Assembly: GCF_003323745.1 (NCBI RefSeq)
Contig: NZ_QOIL01000011.1
Span: forward strand, 186,001-250,000
Length of the DNA stretch: 64,000 nucleotides
Direction of reading: 5' to 3'
From: Sphaerisporangium album
GTDB taxonomy: Bacteria; Actinomycetota; Actinomycetes; Streptosporangiales; Streptosporangiaceae
Part shown: positions 28,686 through 39,991 of the stretch, piece by piece
Numbering within the stretch: position 1 is the stretch's first letter
Layout: every line of letters begins with the position of its first letter
Program-made: the position numbers and the translations under genes
Notes under the pieces: model-generated
The model's database searches: none
Told to the model about the DNA's origin: nothing
What the model saw: only the letters and a program-made list of their open reading frames with translations

Positions 28686-28862
28686 ACTCCAGGTTCGACG
28701 CCCATCGACTCCGGCCGCCTGAATCTGACAGCGAACCAGACGACCCGGCCGGCGCCGTCCCTATAGATGCCCCACCGCTCGGAGAGGGCGGCACGGTGCT
28801 CGGCCTCCTCGATCTCGCGCAGGCGACGCGCCTCGTCGCCGAGACGCTCCTGCTCGATGCGG
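28686..28862 (-). pseudogene. orphan coding-like fragment on the minus strand
   Basis: The minus strand reads RIEQERLGDEARRLREIEEA, EHRAALSERWGIYRDGAGRV and VWFAVRFRRPE, a highly charged helix followed by a beta-like stretch with good codon bias. There is no start codon and no domain that I recognise. It ends abruptly where the plus-strand GntR remnant begins, so it looks like debris at a recombination junction. Confidence 0.3.
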
Positions 28863-28865
28863 AAC

Positions 28866-29315
28866 CTAATGAGGGAGCACGGCTGTAGCCGGCACGTCAT
28901 CACCAACGCCATGCCGGCTCTGAAGGAGGAGGGCCTGATCTGACGCGTGGCCAACAAGGGCATGATCGTCCTCGGGCCAGCCGTCATTGTCGAGATCCCC
29001 ATGGCCATCGGCTTCCGCGACGAGCCTGCCGCATGGGCAGTCGCGTGCCGCCGGGCAGGAAGCACAGCACCTCACAACCATCATCGGCCGCGTCAGGCCC
29101 GCGACCGATGAGGTCGCCCACGCCCTACGTCTCCCGGCCAAGGCCAAAGTGATGATCAACGAAATACAGGGGACGTCGGCCGCGGGAGTCCTCTGCTCGA
29201 CATCACCCGCATCACCTACGACCACGCCGGCCAGCCTGTGCAACTACTGCGCCGCCTCCTCAACCCGCAGCGGGTCCACGTCGCAGACCGACGCGTGCCG
29301 CTTACCTCGCCCTGA
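28866..29315 (+). pseudogene. decayed GntR-family regulator
   Basis: The first piece reads LMREHGCSRHVITNAMPALK, EEGLI, then an in-frame TGA (28941-28943), then RVANKGMIVLG: the GntR winged helix minus its first helix. A second piece in another frame (from ~29071) reads TTIIGRVRPATDEVAHALRL. A third piece, back in the first frame, reads LLDITRITYDHAGQPVQLLR and ends VPLTSP at a TGA (29313-29315), as in UTRA domains. The 5' end is missing and at least two frameshifts and one stop are present, so the gene is dead. It marks the left side of the accessory block. Confidence 0.75.
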
Positions 29316-29371
29316 ACTACGCCCCTTCTCTGGACCATCGCGAATGCTTCCACCGGTCCGAGGCCGTGCCT

Positions 29372-30229
29372 ATGCTGCTGAAGGTGACTTCAACAGAGCA
29401 TGAGATCACCTTCCGGACTCTCGACGGCCAGCAGCTCGCCGGAACGCTCGTCGCACCAGATGGACCGCCAGAGCACGCCGTCGTCCTGGTCCACGGCGGC
29501 GGGGTGACGCGTCACGAAAGCGGCTTCTTCACCCGGATGGCCCACGGACTGGGCGACCACGGCTTGGCATCCCTCCGCTTCGACCTGCGCGGCCACGGCG
29601 AGAGCGAAGGCAGACAAGAAGAACTGACCCTCTCGATCATCCTCAACGACATCCGCGCCGCGCTGCAGCAGCTCCGCGAGACGACCAAGGCCGCCAGACT
29701 CAGCCTGCTCGGCACGAGCTTCGGCGGTGGCATCTGCGGCTACTACGCCGCTCACCGGCCTGACGAAGTGTCCCGGTTGGTACTGCTCAACCCTCAGCTC
29801 AACTACAAGAAGCGCACCATCGACAGCCGCCCCTACTGGCACGACGACTACCTAGACGAAGACGTTGCCCGCGAGCTCACCGAGCAGGGGTCCATCACCT
29901 TTACCCCCACCCTGCGCCACGGCCGACCACTCCTCAACGAGGTCTTCTGGCTGCAGCCGCACACCATCCTCGGTTCCATCAAGGCCCCGACCCTGATCGT
30001 GCACGGCACCAAGGACACCCTCGTGCCGATCGAGTCCTCCCGAGCGGCCGTGCCCCAGTTCACCGCCCCGTGCGACCTGGTCGAGGTCGAAGGCTCACAG
30101 CACACCTTCGCCGTCCACGACGATCTGCAATATCACAACCCCCAGAGCCAGGCATGGCAGGCTGCGGTGATCCGGACGGTCGCCGAATGGCTGCGGAACG
30201 GACGCCTACGCGACAGGACGATCAGCTAA
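29372..30229 (+). CDS. alpha/beta hydrolase
   Basis: 285 aa from ATG 29372 (GAGG eight bases upstream; GTG 29366 is an alternative). The fold has VVLVHGGGVTRHESG (oxyanion hole), FDLRGHGESEG, the nucleophile motif GTSFGG near residue 122, HGTKDTLVP with the acid residue, and SQHTF with the catalytic histidine. It resembles serine esterases/acyl hydrolases of the BAAT/feruloyl-esterase group. Codon use is more mixed than in the flanking core genes. Its last 24 nt overlap the 3' end of the convergent XRE/TPR gene. A role in lanthipeptide maturation is possible only by position. Confidence 0.88.
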   Translation: MLLKVTSTEHEITFRTLDGQQLAGTLVAPDGPPEHAVVLVHGGGVTRHESGFFTRMAHGLGDHGLASLRFDLRGHGESEGRQEELTLSIILNDIRAALQQLRETTKAARLSLLGTSFGGGICGYYAAHRPDEVSRLVLLNPQLNYKKRTIDSRPYWHDDYLDEDVARELTEQGSITFTPTLRHGRPLLNEVFWLQPHTILGSIKAPTLIVHGTKDTLVPIESSRAAVPQFTAPCDLVEVEGSQHTFAVHDDLQYHNPQSQAWQAAVIRTVAEWLRNGRLRDRTIS

Positions 30230-31381
30230 GAAGTCCTGCAGGGCGCGTACCTGCGGCCGACGCTGCCAGCGGCCCATCGACTCCACCACGTCGCCCAAGA
30301 CTGTGATCGTCCGCCGCGAACGAGTGGCCCGCGCAACGCGCGCCGCTGCGAGCCCCAGAGTGGCCGCCTGATCGGGTTCGCCGATCAGGGCCAGCGCGGC
30401 CGCGTGACGGGCCTGGAAGTAGCCGACGTCGCGATATGACAGGCTGCCGCCAGCGATGATCAACTCAAGGATCTCGGCCGCCTTGGCGGGCTTGCCCGCC
30501 TCGGTGAAGCACGCGCTGCTGCGCAGCAACAGCATGTGCTCCGTGAAGGAACTGCCGAGTGTCCCCGGCTCCTCCTTCGGCACGCCGGGCAGCAGTCCGC
30601 GCGCTTCGTCGAGCTTCACCTCGACCTCGCGCACCGGCTCCCCCATCATGGCCAGGCCTAACGCCTGCTGTTGCAGTACTTCTGCCCGCACCCCAGTTGG
30701 GAGCCGCGTGCTGCTGTGCTGCGCCGCTTCCGCCAGCGTCAGCACCTTCAAGGCGTCCTGCCGGTCATAAGCGAGCTGGGACTTGCGCAGCAGCACATAC
30801 CCCTGCATGGGGCCGTCGTCAGCTTCTTGCGCCCACTCGACCGCCCGGTCGTACCAGTACGTTGCCGTGGGCAAATCCCTTAGATCGCGGTACAGCCAGC
30901 CGATGAACTCCGCGGCCTCCGCTCCCAGGGCCAGAAGTTGCCGCCGAATCTGAGGGTGAACTTCGCGGACGGAGTGCTGCATGGCCGCGATCACGGCCTG
31001 CACTCTGGGCAGAGCCGCTGATGGTCCGAGAGTGCCATCCTCCGCCTTGCTTGCGTCGAGCTGGAGGCGTAGTTCCTTCACCACGGCCCCGCCCACGTAG
31101 CGGCGAGGGTCCGTCATGACCCCCTCGACAGGTGGTAGCGTCTCCATGCTTGCCGCTGGCCAGACAACGGCGCGTTGTCTGCGGTCAGCCAGGGCCACGA
31201 GTTGACCGTTTGCCCTGAGAGCCTTGTCGAGTGCCGTGGCGACCGCCATGGTCGGTAACCGTCGTCCGTTTTCAAGATCGGCGATGTAGCTCTTGCTGCA
31301 GTGGGCCACACGAGCCAGCTCGCGGAGTGACATTTCGGCACGTAAACGTCGAAGCGCCTCACCGAACGTTTCAATGCCCAC
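30206..31381 (-). CDS. XRE-family regulator with TPR-like domain, next to the lanthipeptide genes
   Basis: 391 aa from GTG 31381 with AAGGAG at proper spacing; upstream in-frame starts would run through the repeat-rich leader. The N-terminal HTH reads FGEALRRLRAEMSLRELARV, AHCSKSYIADLENGRRLPT (Cro/C1 type, residues 5-45). The remaining 330 residues are helical repeats (YWYDRAVEWAQEADDGPM, LTLAEAAQHSSTRL, HMLLLRSSACFTEAGKPAKA). Such regulators in streptomycetes often control adjacent biosynthetic or mobile genes. The leader contains four TGTCCGC half-sites, suggesting autoregulation. It is divergent from the lanthipeptide operon, 634 nt away. Confidence 0.85.
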   Translation of the reverse strand: MGIETFGEALRRLRAEMSLRELARVAHCSKSYIADLENGRRLPTMAVATALDKALRANGQLVALADRRQRAVVWPAASMETLPPVEGVMTDPRRYVGGAVVKELRLQLDASKAEDGTLGPSAALPRVQAVIAAMQHSVREVHPQIRRQLLALGAEAAEFIGWLYRDLRDLPTATYWYDRAVEWAQEADDGPMQGYVLLRKSQLAYDRQDALKVLTLAEAAQHSSTRLPTGVRAEVLQQQALGLAMMGEPVREVEVKLDEARGLLPGVPKEEPGTLGSSFTEHMLLLRSSACFTEAGKPAKAAEILELIIAGGSLSYRDVGYFQARHAAALALIGEPDQAATLGLAAARVARATRSRRTITVLGDVVESMGRWQRRPQVRALQDFLADRPVA

Positions 31382-31397
31382 GCGGTGCTCCTTACCG

Positions 31398-31442
31398 TGT
31401 CCGCACGGTGGTGTCCGCAAACTCGCGGACACCCTGCGGACA
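31398..31442. promoter_or_regulatory. four TGTCCGC half-sites, probable operator of the XRE/TPR gene
   Basis: TGTCCGC occurs at 31398-31404 and 31412-31418, and its complement GCGGACA at 31425-31431 and 31436-31442. The inner pair forms the perfect palindrome GTGTCCGC-N6-GCGGACAC (31411-31432). It lies between the start codon at 31381 and the likely promoter, so binding would block transcription or the hairpin could act in the mRNA leader. Confidence 0.6.
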
Positions 31443-32015
31443 GCCCACGCCTAGACCCTGACTAGCGGTGCTGACAACGCTATCCCTAAGGGCTGCTTCT
31501 ACCAGCGCCCTCACCACAAAGGCGGCCCGGCCCACGGCGCGACGAACACCGGGGGGAATTCCGGCGCCTTGATCAGGAATCGAGGTCCTGACCCATGCAG
31601 AAGCGTAGAGCCATCCGAGCCCAGCGGAGTCACGAAGGGCGAGTCTCATGAGCACCGCCAGGCGGCGGCCGAGGCCATCCCCGCACACCCTCCCAAGATC
31701 GTCCACGTACCGCCCAGTTTCCTGCTGGAAGTGCTCGGGTGAACAAACGAGCGCGGAGAGCCTGCCATCGCGTTGGCCCGGCCCTCAGCGGTTGCGCCCC
31801 GGAGTCCGGACGGGGCGAGGAAGGGCCGTGGTCCTGGTGCTGCTGGTGTTCGGCGGCGCGAGGACCCCCCGCGAGACATGCCGCACTGCGTGGGGGTACG
31901 TGGCTGTCCCGGCGTGTCCAGTGGACAGCGATGACCGGCCATGGCCAGCGTGAACCCGCGCTACACCGCCCCTCCGTGAAACCCGACCAGTAGACAAACA
32001 ACGAGGAGATCATCT
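31443..32015. other. 573-nt gene-poor region between the regulator and the lanthipeptide operon
   Basis: No complete gene is convincing. One coding-like tail ends at a TGA at 31740-31742 and reads HRQAAAEAIPAHPPKIVHVP before PSFLLEVLG, possibly a gene remnant. The region should hold the lanthipeptide promoter; a GAGGAG ribosome site lies just before 32016. I see no clear -35/-10 pair. Confidence 0.4.
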
Positions 32016-33251
32016 GTGAACGGCAAGGCCACCGACGAGACGCGGGCCGCTGAATTGAGGGGCAAGCTCGCGGGCGAGCTCAGGGACGCCGGGTTCATCA
32101 CCTCGGCCTCGGTCGAAGCGGCGTTCCGCGCAGTGCCGCGGCACGCCTTCGTCCCTGCCGACACTCCGCTGGAAGTGACCTACCAGCTCGACAGCGCGGT
32201 GGTGACCAAGCGGGACGAGCACGGCGTGGCCGTCTCCTCCGTCAGCGCGGCATACATCCAGACCGCGATGCTGGAACAGGCCGAACTGAAGTCGGGTATG
32301 ACGGTGCTGGAGATCGGTTCAGGGGGCGTAAACGCGGCGATGATCGCCGAGATCGTCGGGCCGAAAGGCCGCGTCGTCTCCGTGGACATCGACCCGGAGG
32401 TGACCGACCGCGCCGCGACGCTCCTAGAAGCTGCCGGGTACGGCGACCGCGTCACAGTGCTCACGATCGACGCCGAGGACGAGATTCCCGGGTTCGAGAA
32501 GTTCAACGCGATCATCGTGACGGTCGGCGCGTGGGACCTGGCTCCGGCCTGGCTGCGCCAGTTGGCCGAGGACGGCACGCTGGTGGTGCCGTTGCGGATG
32601 AACGGCATCAGCCGCTCCATCGCGTTCCGCCGCGTCAACAACCACTTGGCCAGTACATCCGCCGTGGTCTGCGGATTCGTCCCGATGCAGGGCACCGGGG
32701 AGCACATCGATCAGGAACTTCGGTTGCCGGACCCGAACGGCCACATGGTCACGCTGCGATTCGACGACAGGGCACCCAACAACCCGAGCCTGCTGGACGG
32801 TGTCCTGGCCACCGAACGCAGCGAAGTATGGTCCGGGGTCACCATCAAGAACGGCGTGTCATTCGCCGACCTGCACCTGTGGTTCGCCAGCTTCCTGCCG
32901 GGTTTCTGCAGACTCGCCGCGCAGGAAGGAACCGAGCTGGCGCAGGAGCGCAAGACGTGGTTCCCGTTCGCCGGCGTACACGGCGACTCCTTCGCCTACC
33001 TGTCGGTGCGGCCCGCGCTGGAGGGCACGGGTGTGGAATTCGGGGCACGCGCGTACGGGCCGCACGGCCAGGAGGCCGCGGCCGCAATGATCAAGCAGAT
33101 TCAGGCGTGGGACGAGCGGGCCCGGAACCGGGCAGAGCCGATGTTCGCCTACTGGCCGACCGGCAGCAACGCCCCCACCCGCCTGCCGGACGGTACGGCG
33201 ACCTTCAACAAGACCCACGGTCTTGTCACGATCTCCTGGCCCACCGGCTGA
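32016..33251 (+). CDS. FxLD-system protein-aspartate O-methyltransferase (LanS-like, PIMT fold)
   Basis: 411 aa from GTG 32016 (GAGGAG upstream). The N-terminal half is a PIMT/PCMT-type methyltransferase: FRAVPRHAFVP near residue 33, VLEIGSGGVNAAMIAEI (SAM motif I) near residue 100, VVSVDID and FNAIIVTVGAWDLAPAWL, then LVVPLRM. The C-terminal ~190 residues are an extra domain absent from housekeeping PIMTs but present in RiPP-associated members. Family knowledge: such enzymes methylate an aspartate in class I lanthipeptides, leading through succinimide to isoaspartate. The likely target is an Asp in the DDGCG core of the next gene. It is first in an operon of six genes. Confidence 0.88.
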   Translation: MNGKATDETRAAELRGKLAGELRDAGFITSASVEAAFRAVPRHAFVPADTPLEVTYQLDSAVVTKRDEHGVAVSSVSAAYIQTAMLEQAELKSGMTVLEIGSGGVNAAMIAEIVGPKGRVVSVDIDPEVTDRAATLLEAAGYGDRVTVLTIDAEDEIPGFEKFNAIIVTVGAWDLAPAWLRQLAEDGTLVVPLRMNGISRSIAFRRVNNHLASTSAVVCGFVPMQGTGEHIDQELRLPDPNGHMVTLRFDDRAPNNPSLLDGVLATERSEVWSGVTIKNGVSFADLHLWFASFLPGFCRLAAQEGTELAQERKTWFPFAGVHGDSFAYLSVRPALEGTGVEFGARAYGPHGQEAAAAMIKQIQAWDERARNRAEPMFAYWPTGSNAPTRLPDGTATFNKTHGLVTISWPTG

Positions 33252-33306
33252 CCAGCCGCTCAGCCAGGATGCCTTACCCCCAACCCAATGTGAGGAGTGT
33301 GATCCG

Positions 33307-33504
33307 ATGACCCCATCGCTGACCCTCGACGCCACCGACATCCAGAACCTGGCGGGCGGCGTGGCCGACGAGGAGTTCGAGCTGGACATGCGCGTTGTGG
33401 AGGCGACCACACCGCTGGTGACCATGATGTGCGCCACCGACGACGGATGCGGCACCACATGCAGCACCAGCGCGTGTAGCACCAGTTCCAACGACCCGTC
33501 CTGA
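33307..33504 (+). CDS. FxLD-family lanthipeptide precursor peptide
   Basis: 65 aa from ATG 33307 with GAGGAG nine bases upstream. The leader contains the class motif F24-E-L-D27 in EEFELDMRVVE. The core is Cys/Thr/Ser-rich: MMCATDDGCGTTCSTSACST, with Cys42, 48, 52 and 57 and about eleven Ser/Thr as dehydration sites (residues 44 to 65). Up to four lanthionine/methyllanthionine rings are possible. Asp45-Asp46-Gly47 is the expected substrate of the upstream methyltransferase because Asp-Gly favours succinimide formation. The cleavage site is not marked by a double-Gly; it probably lies around residues 32-40. Ring pattern is unknown. Confidence 0.92.
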   Translation: MTPSLTLDATDIQNLAGGVADEEFELDMRVVEATTPLVTMMCATDDGCGTTCSTSACSTSSNDPS

Positions 33505-33582
33505 ATCACTCTCTGCCGCCGACGTCCAGCGACAACTTGGGCGTCGGCGGTGCGGTTCCCGATCGACCAAGGAGAGGGGATC

Positions 33583-36500
33583 ATGGTAAGCGTTCCCCCG
33601 CGCTACCAGCACACCGGCCTTGTGGTGGTGCGAGCGAGCACCGACCAGGGCGACCTCGAACTACCCGAACATCTTGATCTGGATCTGGGCGATCCCGCCG
33701 CCTTCCTACCGGAAGGCCGAGCCTGGCTGGCGAAGACATGGGCACGCGGCGACGTCCGCGAGGCCCTCCTGATCGCCAGTCCTGCGCTGGCCACTCGCAT
33801 CAACGCCCTGATCGACTCTGCCACAGCCTCGGCCAACGACGTGCGCCGCGCCATCCTGTCTACCGCCACCTACCTGCTGCGCTGGCAGCGCCGCCCGACT
33901 CCGTTTGGGCTGTTCGCCGGAGTTGCCACAGCCGACATCGGGCCCGCACATGCCGAGATCGGCACCCGGCACCAGGCGTTCGCGCGAGTGGACGGAGACT
34001 GGATCACCCGCCTTGTAGACCAGATCGAGCGGCATCAACGCCTGCGCCCGCACCTGACGGTGATTGCCAACAGCCTCGGCGTCGTCCGCAACGGCCGCTT
34101 CATCGTGGCCACCCGGGCACAAGGCGACACCCGCGACTCCGGGCATGAGGTGTCGGTACGTCTGACCCGGCCCATGCGACTCGTGCTGACGTTGGCCACG
34201 GCACCGATCCGGTTCGACCAGCTCACCGCTCAACTGGCCGGGTGCTTCCCGGAAACTCCTGCGGAGAAGATCCTCGCGCTGCTACACACGCTGGTGGACC
34301 AGCACATCCTGATCACGAACCTGCGTCCGCCGATGACGGCCGCTGACCCGCTGTCTCATCTGCTCGATGTCCTGCACGACGCTGGCGGTGAGGACCTGGC
34401 CGAGGTCTCGGCGCTGCTGCGCGACCTCGAACACCTCCGCGACCTGCTGGCCCGCCACAACGCTGTCGCCGACCCCGAACAGGCCGCCGCGATCCGCGCC
34501 ACGACCAGCACGCACATGGCGACGCTCGCCTCCGGTTCTCGACCGGCCACGGGTCTGGCCATCGACGTAGCCCTCGACGCGTGGATCACCATCCCGGAAC
34601 CGGTACTGCAAGAGGCCGCACGCGCCGCCACCGTCCTGCTGCGGCTGTCCACCGAGCCGTTCGGCCGCACCGCCTGGATGGACTACCACGCCCGCTTCCT
34701 GGCTCGCTATGGCCCCGGCGCCCTCGTTCCGGTGAAAGAGCTGGTGGCCGACTCCGGGCTTGGCTTCCCCGCCGGCTACCTCGGTGCCCCCCGCGCCCGG
34801 CCCACCTGGCGCACGCTCACCGAGCGAGATGCCCACCTGCTGGCCCTCATTCAGAAAGCCACCATGACCGGAGCCGAGATCACCCTTACCGACGCAGACA
34901 TCACGGCCCTGACGGTAGGTGACCACGACACCGTCTTGACGCCACAGCGTGTGGAGATCGGTGTCGCCCTGCATGCCACATCCACCGAGGCGATCAACCG
35001 CGGCAAGTTCGGGCTGCGCGTCGTTGCCGCGCCTCGGGCCTGCACCAGCATGGCCGGACGATTCACCCACCTGCTGAATGAGGACCAGCAGACGCGGCTG
35101 GCCGCGTCCCACAGGCACCACGACGGTGCCATCGCGGCGCAGTTGTCCTTCCCACCCCGCCGCCCCCACAACGAGAACGTCACGCGCGTCCCACCGCTCG
35201 TCCCCGAGGTCGTGCATCTGGGCGAGCACCCCGGCAACAACGCAATCGACGTCGGAGACCTGGCGGTCACCGCTGATGCCGCTCACCTGCACCTGGTGCA
35301 GTCCTCCACTGGTCGGCTCGTCGTCCCTCGGCCCGGACACGCGTTGGACACCGTCGTGCAGACACCACCGTTGGCCCGCTTCCTCGCCGAGATCGCCGAC
35401 GCCCGCAGCGCGGTCTACCGGCCGTTCAGCTACGGTGCCGCGCGCACCCTGCCGTACCTGCCGCGCATCCGCTACCAGCGCACCATCCTGGCCGCCGCCC
35501 GCTGGCTCCTCACCCCCGCCGACCTGCAACCCGGCGTCGGCCAGGACTGGGACGCCGCCCTGCAGGCGTGGCGACACCAGAGGCGAGCACCGGCGCGCGT
35601 CCTGCTGTGCCACGAGGACCTCCGGCTCCCGCTCGACCTCGATCAGCCACTGGACCGCGCCGTCCTTCGGACACGGCTGGGGCGAGCTGGGCGAGTTGAG
35701 CTGCAAGAGGACCACCCGCCGGAGGGGTTCGGCTGGATCGGGCGGCCAGCCGAACTGCTGATCCCGCTGACCGCGACCGACTCGCCTCCGCGCCACCTGC
35801 CGATCACCACAGCACCGGGTCTTGCTCTCCGACCGGGCGATGCCCCGGTGCTGTGCGCCCACCTGGTGGGCAACCCGGCGCGATTCGATGACATCCTCAC
35901 CCGCCACCTGCCCGCCCTCGTCTCCGAGGTCGCCGACCTGGTCACCTGCTGGTGGGTGCGCCGACACCGAGACATGATCCGGCTCGACGCCGACCAGCAC
36001 CTCGCCGTGTTCCTGCGCCTGACTGATTCCCGCCAGTACGGACCGGTAGCGGCGCGCCTAGCCGCGCTCGCCGCCCACCTGGAGGCGCGTGGACTGCCCG
36101 CGCACCTCACCTTGGCCACCTACCGCGAGCAGCCCGGCCGATATGGCGAAGGCGCGGCCCTTACGGCGGCCGAGCAGGTGTTCGCGGCCGACACCCGAGC
36201 GGCCATCACGCAGATCACGATGGCCACCAGCACCGGATTGTCCGGTCAGGCGCTGGCCGCCGCGTCCATGGCGCACCTGGCCGCCGCGTTCGCCCCCGAC
36301 CGCCTCATCGGGTACCGGACGCTGGTTCGCCATCTGGAGCAGCAGACCGGGACGCTGGATCGGGCGCTGCGCAACCAGGCGCTCGACTGGAGTGATCCCA
36401 CCGGGGACTACCAGGCCGTGCGCACTCTGCCGGACGGCGAAGCCGTCGCCGCCGCCTGGCAGGCGCGCGATGCGGTGCTGGCCGACTACCATCACGCCCT

Positions 36501-36651
36501 CGCCCAGCAGCGCACGCCCGCCACAGTTCTGCGGACCCTGCTGCATGACCACCACGTGCGAGCCCTCGGCGTCGATCCCGAGTTCGAGAAGGTGACGATC
36601 CGCCTCACCCGCGCGGCCGCAATGCGCCGTCTCGCCTTGGCAGGTGCTTAG
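33583..36651 (+). CDS. class I lantibiotic dehydratase (LanB), full length
   Basis: 1022 aa from ATG 33583 with AAGGAGAGGGG; a GTG at 33550 would place this site inside the gene. The N-terminal glutamylation domain starts near residue 30 and includes the conserved RWQRRPTPFGLFAGVA near residue 104. The C-terminal elimination (SpaB-C) domain includes TYREQPGRYGEGAALTAAEQ, VFAADTR. It should use Glu-tRNA to glutamylate Ser/Thr of the precursor and then eliminate glutamate, giving dehydro-residues. It is followed with a one-base overlap by lanC. Having both domains, it should act without help, which makes the separate SpaB-C-like protein downstream notable. Confidence 0.93.
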   Translation: MVSVPPRYQHTGLVVVRASTDQGDLELPEHLDLDLGDPAAFLPEGRAWLAKTWARGDVREALLIASPALATRINALIDSATASANDVRRAILSTATYLLRWQRRPTPFGLFAGVATADIGPAHAEIGTRHQAFARVDGDWITRLVDQIERHQRLRPHLTVIANSLGVVRNGRFIVATRAQGDTRDSGHEVSVRLTRPMRLVLTLATAPIRFDQLTAQLAGCFPETPAEKILALLHTLVDQHILITNLRPPMTAADPLSHLLDVLHDAGGEDLAEVSALLRDLEHLRDLLARHNAVADPEQAAAIRATTSTHMATLASGSRPATGLAIDVALDAWITIPEPVLQEAARAATVLLRLSTEPFGRTAWMDYHARFLARYGPGALVPVKELVADSGLGFPAGYLGAPRARPTWRTLTERDAHLLALIQKATMTGAEITLTDADITALTVGDHDTVLTPQRVEIGVALHATSTEAINRGKFGLRVVAAPRACTSMAGRFTHLLNEDQQTRLAASHRHHDGAIAAQLSFPPRRPHNENVTRVPPLVPEVVHLGEHPGNNAIDVGDLAVTADAAHLHLVQSSTGRLVVPRPGHALDTVVQTPPLARFLAEIADARSAVYRPFSYGAARTLPYLPRIRYQRTILAAARWLLTPADLQPGVGQDWDAALQAWRHQRRAPARVLLCHEDLRLPLDLDQPLDRAVLRTRLGRAGRVELQEDHPPEGFGWIGRPAELLIPLTATDSPPRHLPITTAPGLALRPGDAPVLCAHLVGNPARFDDILTRHLPALVSEVADLVTCWWVRRHRDMIRLDADQHLAVFLRLTDSRQYGPVAARLAALAAHLEARGLPAHLTLATYREQPGRYGEGAALTAAEQVFAADTRAAITQITMATSTGLSGQALAAASMAHLAAAFAPDRLIGYRTLVRHLEQQTGTLDRALRNQALDWSDPTGDYQAVRTLPDGEAVAAAWQARDAVLADYHHALAQQRTPATVLRTLLHDHHVRALGVDPEFEKVTIRLTRAAAMRRLALAGA

Positions 36652-37829
36652 TGAGCAGCAGGACGAGTGAAACGGTGCAGCTCACCCCGCACGACGTGGA
36701 GCGGCAATCACTGGCTAAGGGGTCTGCCGCGACCGCGCTCCTACACATCGAGCGGGCCTTGAGCGGCACTGGGGGCTGGGCAACCGCTCACGCCCACATC
36801 AAGCAGGTCGCGAACGGGCCGATCGACGGCGCACCGCACGCCGGCCTCTACTACGGGGCACCCGCCGTCGCGTTCGTCCTGCACGCCGCCAGCGCCAGCC
36901 GCGATGCCCGCTACCAGGCGGCGGCCCACGCCCTGGACAAGCACGTCGCGCGCCTGGCCCAGCGACGTCTGGCCACCGCGGCGGAGCGGATGGGACGACG
37001 CCTCCCTGCCTCGTTCGCCGAATTCGACCTCTTCCGAGGGCTGGCCGGGATCGGCGGGCTGCTGCTCCTACGAGCTCCCGGCAGCGACCTGCTGGCCGAG
37101 GTCCTCGACTATATGATCCGGTTGACCAAACCACGCCGCATCGACGGGCAAGAGCTGCCGGGCTGGTGGGTCGATCACGATCCCGACCCGCTGATCCCAA
37201 CGCCTGGCGGGCACGTCAATCTTGGCCTCGCGCACGGCGCGGCCGGGCCGCTCGCTCTGCTGTCCCTGGCCGCGCTGCGCGGCTGCGAGGTTCCGGGCCA
37301 GATCGACGCCCTCCACGGGCTGTGCCACTGGTTCGACCGATGGCGGCAGTCCTCGGCGGAAGGGTTGTGGTGGCCTCAGTGGCTCACCCGCGACGAAATG
37401 CGAACCGGCCGCACCACCCAGCAGAGGCAAGGGTGGCCGTCCTGGTGCTACGGGACGGCCGGGATCGCGCGCGCACTGCAACTCGCCGCCCTGGCAACGC
37501 GCGACCCCATCCATCGTGGGATCGCCGAGAAGGCCATGGTTGAGTGCCTCACCGATCAGCAACTCAGCAAGATCACAGGGACGGGGCTGTGCCATGGCAT
37601 GGCCGGGGTCTATCAGACCGCGTTCCGGGCCGCTGGCGACGCCGCCAATGCCGCAATCGGCCAACGACTCCCCGCGCTCGCCGCCGCGCTGGCCCAGCGT
37701 GCGGCTGACGGCCAGGACGATCCTGGAGGGCTGCCGGATGGAGCCGCCGGGGTTGGGCTGGCCCTGGAAACCGCGCGGCAGGCCACTCCTCCACGTTCGG
37801 GATGGGACGCATGCCTCCTCATCACTTGA
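36651..37829 (+). CDS. lanthionine synthetase C-family cyclase (LanC)
   Basis: 392 aa from GTG 36651, overlapping the lanB stop. The toroidal LanC fold is indicated by GLYYGAPAVAFVLHAA, FRGLAGIGGLLLL, NLGLAHGAAGPLALLSL, then zinc-site WCYGTAGIARAL and GLCHGMAGVYQTAF, giving Cys, Cys-His ligands as in NisC. LPDGAAGVGLALE closes the ring. It should catalyse thiol addition of Cys onto dehydro-residues, forming lanthionine rings in the FxLD precursor. The next gene overlaps its 3' end by 28 nt in another frame, so the operon is tightly coupled. Confidence 0.93.
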   Translation: MSSRTSETVQLTPHDVERQSLAKGSAATALLHIERALSGTGGWATAHAHIKQVANGPIDGAPHAGLYYGAPAVAFVLHAASASRDARYQAAAHALDKHVARLAQRRLATAAERMGRRLPASFAEFDLFRGLAGIGGLLLLRAPGSDLLAEVLDYMIRLTKPRRIDGQELPGWWVDHDPDPLIPTPGGHVNLGLAHGAAGPLALLSLAALRGCEVPGQIDALHGLCHWFDRWRQSSAEGLWWPQWLTRDEMRTGRTTQQRQGWPSWCYGTAGIARALQLAALATRDPIHRGIAEKAMVECLTDQQLSKITGTGLCHGMAGVYQTAFRAAGDAANAAIGQRLPALAAALAQRAADGQDDPGGLPDGAAGVGLALETARQATPPRSGWDACLLIT

Positions 37830-38779
37830 CGACCACGGCCCCGCACCAGCTCGCCGCTGGTGTCCTCGCCTTTCTTGCAGGGGTAGATCTCGACACGGTG
37901 GCCGCCGATACGGGTGTGGACCCGGGTGACCTCGATGAGGCCGCCATCGCCTTCCAGGCCGCGGGGCTCGCGGCGCTCGAACGCCGCGCTGAGACCGGCT
38001 GGTATCAGCTACGCGTCCAGTTTCCCGACTGGGACACCGCCGAGGAGATCAGCGCCCACCACCTCGGGCCCCGTCTGGAACAGCTTCAGGGGCGCGGGGC
38101 TGTCAACGGCTGGTGGTTCCTGCGTAAGCCTCCTGGCTGGCGGCTGCGTCTGCGGGAAGCCGACGTTCCCGCCGTTGACCAGGTGCTCGATGAGCTGACC
38201 GCAGCAGGGGCACTCACCCGCTGGTGGCCGACCATTTACGAGCCGGAAACCGCCGCATTCGGCGGACCAGACGGGATGCAGGCCGCGCACGATCTGTTCT
38301 GCGCCGACAGCCTCGGCGCGCTGGAGTTCGCCCGCCAGGACAGTCCCAGCCTCGGCCGCCGTGAACTGTCCATCGTGCTGATCAACGCCCTGCTCCAGGC
38401 GGCCGGCCTGGACTGGTTCGAGCGCGGCGACGTGTTCGCCCGCGCGACTCAGCTACGACCAGCACCTGCCCCCGCCGACACCGGCCGCCTCGAAGCGCTG
38501 ACCACCAACGTGCGCACGCTGCTGTCCATCCCCGCCCAAGCCGACACCCAACCGTTCGAGCCCGGTGGGCCCGCCGCGTTCGCTGCGCCGTGGCTCACCG
38601 CCTGGCAGACCGCCGGCAACCAGCTCGGCCGCGCCGCTGCCGAAGGCCGTCTTGACCGCGGGTTACGGGCCCTCCTCACTCACGTCGTGATCTTCCACTG
38701 GAACCGGCTCGGCCTGTCGGCCACCACGCAAGGCATCCTCTCCCGCGCGGCCACGGCCGCCTTCCTTCCCGAGACTTGA
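37802..38779 (+). CDS. thiopeptide-type bacteriocin biosynthesis (SpaB-C-like) protein
   Basis: 325 aa from ATG 37802 (ATG 37811 is an alternative). After an N-terminal helical part, WYQLRVQFPDWDTAEEISAH, GPRLEQLQGRGAVNGWWFLR and GWRLRLRE match the domain found at the C-terminus of lantibiotic dehydratases and as separate proteins in thiopeptide clusters. MQAAHDLFCADSLGALEF near residue 160 and an HWNRLGLS motif close the domain. It could assist glutamate elimination or bind precursor; because LanB already has this domain, the role is unclear. It overlaps lanC by 28 nt. Confidence 0.85.
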   Translation: MGRMPPHHLTTTAPHQLAAGVLAFLAGVDLDTVAADTGVDPGDLDEAAIAFQAAGLAALERRAETGWYQLRVQFPDWDTAEEISAHHLGPRLEQLQGRGAVNGWWFLRKPPGWRLRLREADVPAVDQVLDELTAAGALTRWWPTIYEPETAAFGGPDGMQAAHDLFCADSLGALEFARQDSPSLGRRELSIVLINALLQAAGLDWFERGDVFARATQLRPAPAPADTGRLEALTTNVRTLLSIPAQADTQPFEPGGPAAFAAPWLTAWQTAGNQLGRAAAEGRLDRGLRALLTHVVIFHWNRLGLSATTQGILSRAATAAFLPET

Positions 38780-38781
38780 TC

Positions 38782-39894
38782 ATGGACCTCATACTGCGTG
38801 CCGCCGTCCGCCGCTTCCCGCTCGTCGGCCGCGCCCGGCCCGCCTGCCCTTCGCTTCCGGAGCGTGTCAAGGAGATCGCCGACAGCGCCGCGCGCCCCGG
38901 CGCGGATCCGCTGCACGAGGGGGCGCACGCACTGAACAAGGCCGCGCTGCTGGCGAGCGACTGCGGCCTACCGGACTTGGCCCGTGAGCTGTGCTGGCAG
39001 CACATCAACATCTACCGTGAGGCCGATCACCCCCTCACCGTGCTCCAAGCGCGATACATGCTGGAACCCGCCCTCAACCTCGCCCGGCTTCAGATCCGCG
39101 CCGACGCCGGGCAGCACGCGCTACGACTGCTGGACAGCATGTACCAAGCGGCCAGGAACGGCACCGACTTGGTGATCGAGGGCCGCCGCCTGCCCCTGAC
39201 CAACATCACCGCCACCCGGCAGGAACATCACAAGCTGCGCGAATGGGTCTGGCTGCAGTACCTCGCGGACGGCATCCGCGCCCTGGCGCTCGCTGACCGC
39301 TGGGACGAGGCGGTCACCCATGCTCGGGTCCACAACGGGGTCGGCGTGCACCTGATGGAGGGACGACAGGCCGAGATCATCGCCCATTGCCTGCGTGGTG
39401 AAGCTCGAGCAGCTCAGAGGGTGTTGGAGGAGTGCACGCTGACCGAGCCCTGGGAGCACTTGGTCGGCTCGTGCCTGAGCGTGATGTGCGCGGACCGGAG
39501 CAGCGCGTCGGCCGGCCGAAACGTTGCGGCGATGGTCGAGCAGTTCCTTGGAAGAGTGCCTCTGCCCGGCTTTGCGGTCTTCCGTGCCCGGCTCGGGCTG
39601 ACCGTAGCCACGCTCGCGAGCAGCACGGCCTCCGGAGCGGCTGACCGCGTGCACGCCCGGGTGGCTGAGGAGGTGGTCGAGTCTGGCGATGGTTACGCCG
39701 CTCGCGATGTGCTCACAGGTGGCCATCCCTTGTCCGCGGCGCATCGGCAAGCGTTGACTGGCCTGGTGGCGTCTGCTGGCCTGGGAGCTGGTGAACTGCC
39801 GGAGCCGCTGCTGGACGCGCTGATCTGCTCAGCGAAGATCGCGACAGACGTCTTGACCGAAGCCATACGGCTCGCCCCCTCTTCTCCATGCTGA
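38782..39894 (+). CDS. helical (TPR-like) protein of the lanthipeptide operon, unknown function
   Basis: 370 aa from ATG 38782 (TTG 38776 also possible), beginning three bases after the preceding stop. The sequence is almost entirely amphipathic helices: HEGAHALNKAALLASDCGLP, ARELCWQHINIYREADHPL, RYMLEPALNLARLQIRADAG, then RWDEAVTHARVHNG. This suggests a TPR-like solenoid with no catalytic motif and no DNA-binding domain. I recall similar proteins beside FxLD clusters, but their role is not known. It may scaffold the enzymes or bind precursor. Last gene of the operon. Confidence 0.7.
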   Translation: MDLILRAAVRRFPLVGRARPACPSLPERVKEIADSAARPGADPLHEGAHALNKAALLASDCGLPDLARELCWQHINIYREADHPLTVLQARYMLEPALNLARLQIRADAGQHALRLLDSMYQAARNGTDLVIEGRRLPLTNITATRQEHHKLREWVWLQYLADGIRALALADRWDEAVTHARVHNGVGVHLMEGRQAEIIAHCLRGEARAAQRVLEECTLTEPWEHLVGSCLSVMCADRSSASAGRNVAAMVEQFLGRVPLPGFAVFRARLGLTVATLASSTASGAADRVHARVAEEVVESGDGYAARDVLTGGHPLSAAHRQALTGLVASAGLGAGELPEPLLDALICSAKIATDVLTEAIRLAPSSPC

Positions 39895-39916
39895 GAGCCT
39901 GCACGTAGCTCTGAAA

Positions 39917-39991
39917 CACAAACTGGTCTGCTCCGCTGATGAGTGGCATGCGTTCATCGGCGGGCTCAAAGCTGGTCACATTGCTGCTTAG
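39917..39991 (+). pseudogene. C-terminal fragment of a DUF397-type protein
   Basis: The 24 codons before a TAG (39989-39991) read HKLVCSADEWHAFIGGLKAG and HIAA. This matches the end of DUF397 proteins (S..EW.AF..G.K.G..), which usually accompany XRE regulators. No start or upstream part is present. It marks the right side of the lanthipeptide block. Confidence 0.55.

Follow-up and report, generated by a model that had tools for sequence, protein, structure and literature searches.

Among the class I lanthipeptide precursors of Actinobacteria, families I 1-4, in which a conserved core Asp goes with a methyltransferase, are the most abundant according to Walker et al. (PMC7268733), and Lee et al. 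found methyltransferases of this kind together with a TxDGC core motif in 1305 lanthipeptide clusters (PMC10787088). A 2026 review, which also describes the motif, proposed the name lanthimiditides for their products (PMC13001092). In the coi system, the syn-lyase CoiSA is characterized by Lys46, Arg51 and Arg53 and by a hydrophobic residue in place of R826 of the nisin dehydratase NisB, and stand-alone syn-lyases beside a full-length LanB dehydratase also occur (PMC9486935). A syn-lyase-only route exists, since SapT, the product of a split LanB and a syn-lyase alone, has three D-allo-L-methyllanthionines and one DL-lanthionine (PMC9011353). Here we describe a cluster of this known kind, the FxLD or coi-olv type, in Sphaerisporangium album (the window: 64,000 nucleotides, positions 186,001 to 250,000 of contig NZ_QOIL01000011.1). 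From the families, motifs, loss of lyase residues in LanB and co-occurrence with a syn-lyase that can be read in the sequences, we lean, with modest confidence, towards the view that LanB has ceded the elimination half-reaction to a stand-alone syn-glutamyl lyase.

The genes and sites of the cluster are given below in window coordinates; LanB residues are numbered from the GTG at 33550.

32016-33251, plus strand: FxLD-system aspartate O-methyltransferase, PIMT fold with a C-terminal part (TIGR04364, 492.6 bits; PCMT, 105.6 bits)
33307-33504, plus strand: precursor peptide of 65 amino acids (TIGR04363, 57.8 bits; translation)
33442-33444, plus strand: codon of Asp46, the Asp of the TxDGC motif (translation; motif conservation)
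33515-33551, plus strand: hairpin between precursor and LanB, stem of 15 bp (predicted fold, z -4.08 relative to 200 shuffles)
33550-36651, plus strand: LanB dehydratase (Lant_dehydr_N, 699.6 bits; Lant_dehydr_C, 84.4 bits)
35827-36618, plus strand: C-terminal elimination domain of LanB (alignments; fold retained in the predicted model)
35998-36012, plus strand: codons of LanB residues 817-821, at the place of HIRLR in NisB (alignments)
36651-37829, plus strand: LanC cyclase (LANC_like, 136.7 bits; alignment to MadC)
37802-38779, plus strand: stand-alone predicted syn-glutamyl lyase, SpaB_C fold (TIGR03891, 192.4 bits; motif comparison with CoiSA and SptBb)
38776-39894, plus strand: helical-repeat protein, similar to tetratricopeptide repeat (TPR) proteins (predicted model, weak fold matches; co-occurrence with syn-lyases)

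The LanB of this cluster departs from the canonical enzyme at the elimination site. When NisB is aligned with a profile of intact domains, R784 and R786 fall in HIRLR, E823 and R826 in EVER, and H961 in HVHNNR. The window LanB has Ala819, Phe821 and Gln861 at the places of R784, R786 and E823 and thus lacks the canonical anti-lyase set, while R826 and H961 are kept as Arg864 and His999. In NisB, the arginine pair R784/R786 binds the glutamyl carboxylate, and the R786A variant halts at the glutamylated peptide. The six glutamylation residues of MadB (R89, R93, T95, D128, D308 and R483) are all present, as R111, R115, T117, D148, D339 and R504. The glutamylation half of LanB therefore looks competent and the elimination half non-canonical. 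This is not a split LanB of the spt type: the C-terminal domain is present and folded in the predicted model (predicted local distance difference test, pLDDT, 93.9), which has template modelling (TM) scores of 0.75-0.79 to MadB and MibB and 0.59-0.63 to NisB. The initial annotation had called the LanB 'full', which passes over the lost residues of the elimination site.

The separate SpaB_C protein encoded downstream carries Lys109, Arg114 and Arg116 with the spacing of the three CoiSA residues, a motif that all 12 aligned stand-alone proteins share, and has an Ala, a hydrophobic residue, at the position of NisB R826. These residues make a syn-glutamyl lyase the best reading of the protein, and (E)-dehydrobutyrine and D-allo-L-methyllanthionine are predicted accordingly; the initial annotation had recognized its SpaB-C likeness but overlooked the residues. 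Against solved structures, a single-sequence search gave no match and a profile search returned only NisB and MibB at E 0.001-0.004. An N-terminal extension of about 65 residues (37802-38000) is common to the lyases of loci L044, L056 and L058, and is short or missing in most other aligned stand-alone lyases.

The last gene of the operon encodes a protein without a Pfam or NCBIfam family at E 0.001. Its predicted model (pLDDT 95.6) is almost entirely helix, with weak fold matches in the PDB (NlpI at 0.015, RapH at 0.032; none at E <= 0.001), so that the earlier label 'TPR-like' is fair without being proven. The protein is a probable partner of the syn-lyase, because it accompanies the syn-lyase in 103 of 156 loci, is missing from all 31 loci that lack one, and in 10 loci, each with a LanB of the altered class defined below, shares a single open frame with the lyase. 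Homology of this protein to the XRE/NsdA-type regulator upstream was considered and rejected (hhalign probability 0.1%).

In order to place the LanB changes in context, we surveyed 221 loci including the window, 219 of them with a LanB; these gave 221 LanB rows, of which 15 identical ones were dropped and 206 distinct ones kept. Eighty rows came from the higher-scoring TIGR04363 matches listed (precursor-led set) and 71 were the best-ranked matches listed by similarity to the window LanB (LanB-led set), and 55 were picked by hand among the PF04738 matches listed in the order, avoiding loci already sampled; none of the sets is a random draw. A phylum-wide PF04738 control had given 8 of 246 genomes, too few, and the order was used instead. 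A syn-lyase was counted if it scored above 150 bits in the locus, and its absence was called only with 4.5 kb of sequence downstream.

The arginine pair is intact in 97 of the 206 LanBs, both arginines are lost in 76 (hereafter altered), the domain is absent or cut off in 26, a single arginine is lost in 2 (L209 and L221), and 5 rows are partial. The precursor-led set alone holds 28 altered, 24 intact, 25 domain-absent and 3 partial rows. Among intact LanBs, R784 and R786 are Arg in 97/97 and E823 is Glu in 96/97. The altered ones show 12 residue types at R784 (Ala in 24, Asp in 17, Val in 10, Glu in 7 and eight more), eleven at R786, and Gln (58), His (12), Pro (5) or a gap (1) at E823.

A syn-lyase lies near 75 of the 76 altered LanBs, the exception being the decayed cluster L162, with a lyase fragment of 65 bits and a cut LanC. 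Intact LanBs occur both with a syn-lyase (64) and without one (28), 5 being contig-end cases, and 21 of the 26 LanBs with an absent or cut domain have one. The domain-less rows that lack a syn-lyase above 150 bits are L066 (74 bits, contig end), L071 (a stop inside LanB), two from L091 and one from L172. Seen from the other side, 30 classifiable full-length LanBs stand without a syn-lyase, and 28 of these keep the arginine pair, the others being one single change and the decayed case; the 31 rows of the PF04738-led set that have no syn-lyase comprise 29 intact, one single Arg change and one partial. One further altered LanB, that of L137, is identical to that of L135 and was dropped from the count; no lyase was found in the 2.3 kb of contig left there, and its LanC is incomplete. 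The syn-lyases beside altered LanBs keep the Lys and the second Arg in 76/76 each, and those beside intact LanBs keep the Lys in 63/64 and the first Arg in 51/64, the latter partly perhaps through alignment slip. The Fisher value for the survey (1.5e-7) serves as description only, because the tree below holds few independent events. As a separate observation, short domain-less LanBs (21 rows; L060, L062, L065, L069, L076 and others) nearly all stand beside a methyltransferase-syn-lyase fusion, a combination absent from the list in section 9 of PMC9486935.

A tree built from only the glutamylation domain, for which the 196 rows of sufficient length were thinned to 173, unites 62 altered rows in one clade, which also contains the broken L071, with a Shimodaira-Hasegawa-like approximate likelihood ratio (SH-aLRT) support of 100. 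L108, in which all five residues have changed, is sister to 13 domain-less LanBs (SH-aLRT 99), and four further domain-less LanBs form a separate clade (SH-aLRT 99). L108 and its sisters suggest a path that may have led from intact through altered to deleted domains.

Several observations weigh against a simple transfer of elimination to the stand-alone lyase. About three independent losses are visible on the tree, which leaves a test of independent pairs without power. Nearest to the altered clade stand 13 intact LanBs that lack a syn-lyase (SH-aLRT 82); the gain or loss of the syn-lyase thus falls close to this branch and may have come before or after the LanB changes. The altered domain evolves with a ratio of nonsynonymous to synonymous divergence (dN/dS) of 0.20-0.40 over ten pairs; the N-terminal parts of these genes lie at 0.24-0.40 and intact domains at 0.14-0.34 (ten pairs). 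Altered LanBs retain R826 and H961 in 67 of 76 each, and a five-residue insertion that is absent from intact LanBs contains an Arg811 conserved at 0.77 of 62 rows. Purifying selection, the kept fold and Arg811 indicate that the altered domain is maintained for something, as a scaffold or for altered chemistry. Furthermore, loss of such arginines need not abolish elimination, since NisB R784A still yielded sevenfold dehydrated nisin and CoiSA R51A and R53A retained activity (PMC9486935). Finally, in the presence of CoiB H994A, all three Thr residues of CoiA1 underwent elimination by the CoiSA lyase, but LanC failed to close all rings, so that an all-syn route would need a changed LanC accepting (E)-dehydrobutyrine.

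These points may mean that the lyase domain of LanB has been rewired. The insertion, RHR-D/E-x-x-R, would then supply new contacts, and LanB would still carry out some of the Thr/Ser elimination, giving mixed ring stereochemistry as in coi. We consider this unlikely, although it would account for the purifying selection, the kept R826, H961, Arg811 and fold, and the tolerance of CoiSA to arginine loss. The conserved R784, R786 and E823 have been replaced by many residues, some of them acidic, without a consensus, and H961 has also become Arg in six altered LanBs. That the domain is retired remains the likelier description rather than a demonstrated one. It is improbable that the LanB changes are harmless and that both lyases work as in coi, in an ordinary cluster of that type whose second lyase happens to be separate rather than fused; the gene set is that of coi and NisB R784A alone had little effect, yet NisB R826A and H961A, like R786A, halt at the glutamylated stage, and the three conserved positions were lost jointly in a single supported clade. 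That the stand-alone protein does not eliminate at all, but performs for instance a cycloaddition like the pyridine synthases of thiopeptides, a possibility raised for such proteins by Walker et al. (PMC7268733), is very improbable given the Lys/Arg/Arg pattern it has in common with CoiSA and SptBb, both of which have been shown to be glutamyl lyases.

We return to elimination by the stand-alone lyase, for which the following course is proposed. LanB would bind the FELD leader, and its N-terminal domain would glutamylate core Thr and Ser residues from Glu-tRNA. Elimination would fall to the lyase at 37802-38779, because the LanB domain could no longer hold the glutamyl carboxylate; the lyase would remove glutamate with syn geometry and convert Thr to (E)-dehydrobutyrine, possibly assisted by the helical-repeat protein. 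LanC would then close the rings, which by analogy with CoiA1 (Thr44-Cys48, Thr51-Cys57 and Thr59-Cys52, positions as in the text of PMC9486935) might have the same pattern, with Cys42 perhaps in a fourth; up to four thioether rings are possible. Lastly, the methyltransferase would methylate Asp46 within the first ring to give an aspartimide, which could hydrolyse to isoaspartate. The window LanB resembles the CoiB H994A state made permanent. Whether a large actinobacterial lineage shares this arrangement, with a full-length LanB, a retired anti-lyase, every dehydration through a stand-alone syn-lyase and all-syn products bearing only allo-type methyllanthionine, we regard as finely balanced and, if anything, slightly doubtful.

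The precursor has FELD at residues 24-27 and Cys42, Cys48, Cys52 and Cys57, which bears out the earlier description of a FELD leader and four core Cys. Precursors were recovered in 64 of the 81 precursor-led loci, and their 60 distinct tails, extracted without requiring the motif, all contain [TS]xDxC; over all loci, the motif is present in 108 of 117 distinct tails, and several of the others have Asn at the Asp place or appear to be false hits. The initial annotation had put the isoaspartate or succinimide at Asp45 or Asp46, which is too broad: the conserved Asp of [TS]xDxC is Asp46, most likely the methylated residue, and Asp45 was rejected. The product had been thought probably undescribed, and no named one was found in the literature searched; the core is not unique, being identical from FELD to the C-terminus in locus L070.

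Two further features of the precursors were observed. Distinct precursors from loci with an altered LanB have Asp-Pro within the last four residues in 21 of 23 cases (33490-33501 in the window); the same holds for 0/15 precursors of the intact type and 0/18 of the domain-less type. In L224, L228 and L240, precursors upstream of LanB have Asn for the conserved Asp (TxNGC), together with a methyltransferase and an intact LanB and without a syn-lyase; Asn-Gly can reach a succinimide by deamidation, and the task of the methyltransferase may differ there.

Assignment of the cluster as FxLD class I with a dedicated aspartate methyltransferase, as first proposed, holds: the precursor and methyltransferase far exceed the curated cut-offs of TIGR04363 (30 bits) and TIGR04364 (320 bits), all the named genes are present, and the same gene order was found again in most fetched FxLD loci, so that the cluster is more than a chance arrangement. 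The methyltransferase has the expected PCMT domain (residues 17-226) followed by the extra C-terminal part (TIGR04364 match, residues 11-408), and LanC has its zinc ligands Cys, Cys and His in WCYG (residue 265) and CHG (residue 314) in alignment to MadC, as well as AHG at residue 194. With class I lanthipeptide genes, a PIMT homologue and a TxDGC core, the gene content is that of the lanthimiditides as defined in PMC13001092. A novel lanthipeptide class was rejected, as family models and literature point to a known one.

LanB and LanC overlap by 1 nt, LanC and the lyase by 28 nt, and the lyase and the helical-repeat protein by 4 nt. The 'one overlapping operon' described earlier thus applies from LanB onwards, but gaps separate the precursor from both the methyltransferase and LanB. 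LanB may start at the ATG at 33583, behind AGGAGAGGGG, instead of the GTG at 33550. The hairpin between precursor and LanB is a possible attenuator; a stem run of at least 9 occurs within 90 nt past the precursor stop in 59 of 64 loci, a count made without shuffle control. Two neighbouring genes lie upstream:

30206-31432, minus strand: divergent regulator of the XRE/NsdA family (NF053720, 149.4 bits, cut-off 75 bits)
29366-30229, adjoining the regulator: S33-type alpha/beta hydrolase (Pfam scan of flanking frames)

The start of the cluster had been set at 30206 and so took in this regulator without describing it; the gene is a possible cluster regulator. In a Pfam scan of ten flanking frames, no ABC exporter, known lanthipeptide protease or immunity protein was found; the frames include the hydrolase, a LytTR response regulator, a histidine kinase and an SSF symporter. 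The hydrolase is a candidate for the missing leader protease, and the hydrolase and regulator pair was seen again near FxLD clusters in L070/L122, L202, L212, L197/L211 and L205.

Hydrolase, regulator and the whole operon form an 11-kb block (28769-39922) whose DNA shares 94-95% identity along most of its length, with gaps and one piece at 76%, with Sinosporangium album locus L122 (NZ_FNCN01000038.1); blastn against the 21 kb of that contig gave no match outside the block. The synonymous divergence (dS) of LanB between the two is 0.11-0.12, far below that of recA from the same genomes (0.50), which supports a probable horizontal transfer of the block between genera. RecA was the yardstick, rpoB having been dropped as broken or not found in several genomes. 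The source genome has two rpoB-like genes (G000:C5 and G000:C34), both above the cut-off.

FxLD precursors are common: of the 297 genomes sampled from the order, 111 gave a TIGR04363 match (104 above the cut-off), compared with none of 14 control genomes. The source genome (9.3 Mb) has three, along with three methyltransferases above the TIGR04364 cut-off, and two of its FxLD LanBs are intact, one with a methyltransferase-fused and the other with a stand-alone syn-lyase; the third is the altered LanB of the window.

The family itself is known, and what is new here is the variation of the dehydratase: no report of altered LanBs was found in the open-licence literature searched, supplements not covered. 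A supported clade of them falls within a class I lanthipeptide type that is among the commonest. If our reading is correct, ring stereochemistry could be predicted from a few LanB residues and a neighbouring syn-lyase, and structures assigned to altered-LanB clusters on the model of nisin or CoiA1 would be incorrect. The splitting of a two-step dehydratase into two proteins would also become testable, since present-day LanBs include intact, altered and domain-less forms, and the source genome itself has two of the first and one of the second.

Taken together, the cluster can be set beside four relatives. The coi cluster of Streptomyces coelicolor A3(2) has the same gene set, but its syn-lyase is fused to the methyltransferase, whereas that of the window is separate, and CoiB keeps the anti-lyase residues, whereas the window LanB has lost those at R784, R786 and E823 (PMC9486935); of two competent lyases as in coi, only the syn-lyase has its motif here. 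The olv cluster of Streptomyces olivaceus (OlvA, OlvSA) shares the precursor type, LanB, LanC and the methyltransferase converting Asp to isoAsp, but has a canonical anti-lyase LanB and no second lyase (PMC13001092, PMC9486935), in contrast to the syn-lyase and altered LanB of the window. In spt, as predicted here, a separate syn-lyase with the conserved Lys eliminates; its LanB, however, is split and has no C-terminal domain, and no methyltransferase is named in the available parts of PMC9011353 and PMC9890492, while the window has both. The fourth is in another genus: in Sinosporangium album L122, whose LanB is identical to that of L070, LanB is 92% identical to ours, the altered site and the core from FELD on are the same, and a syn-lyase and a helical-repeat protein are likewise present. 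If the proposed division of labour holds, this altered lineage would stand between coi, with its two lyases, and the split-LanB systems, its old lyase domain serving as a scaffold or taking on a new task.

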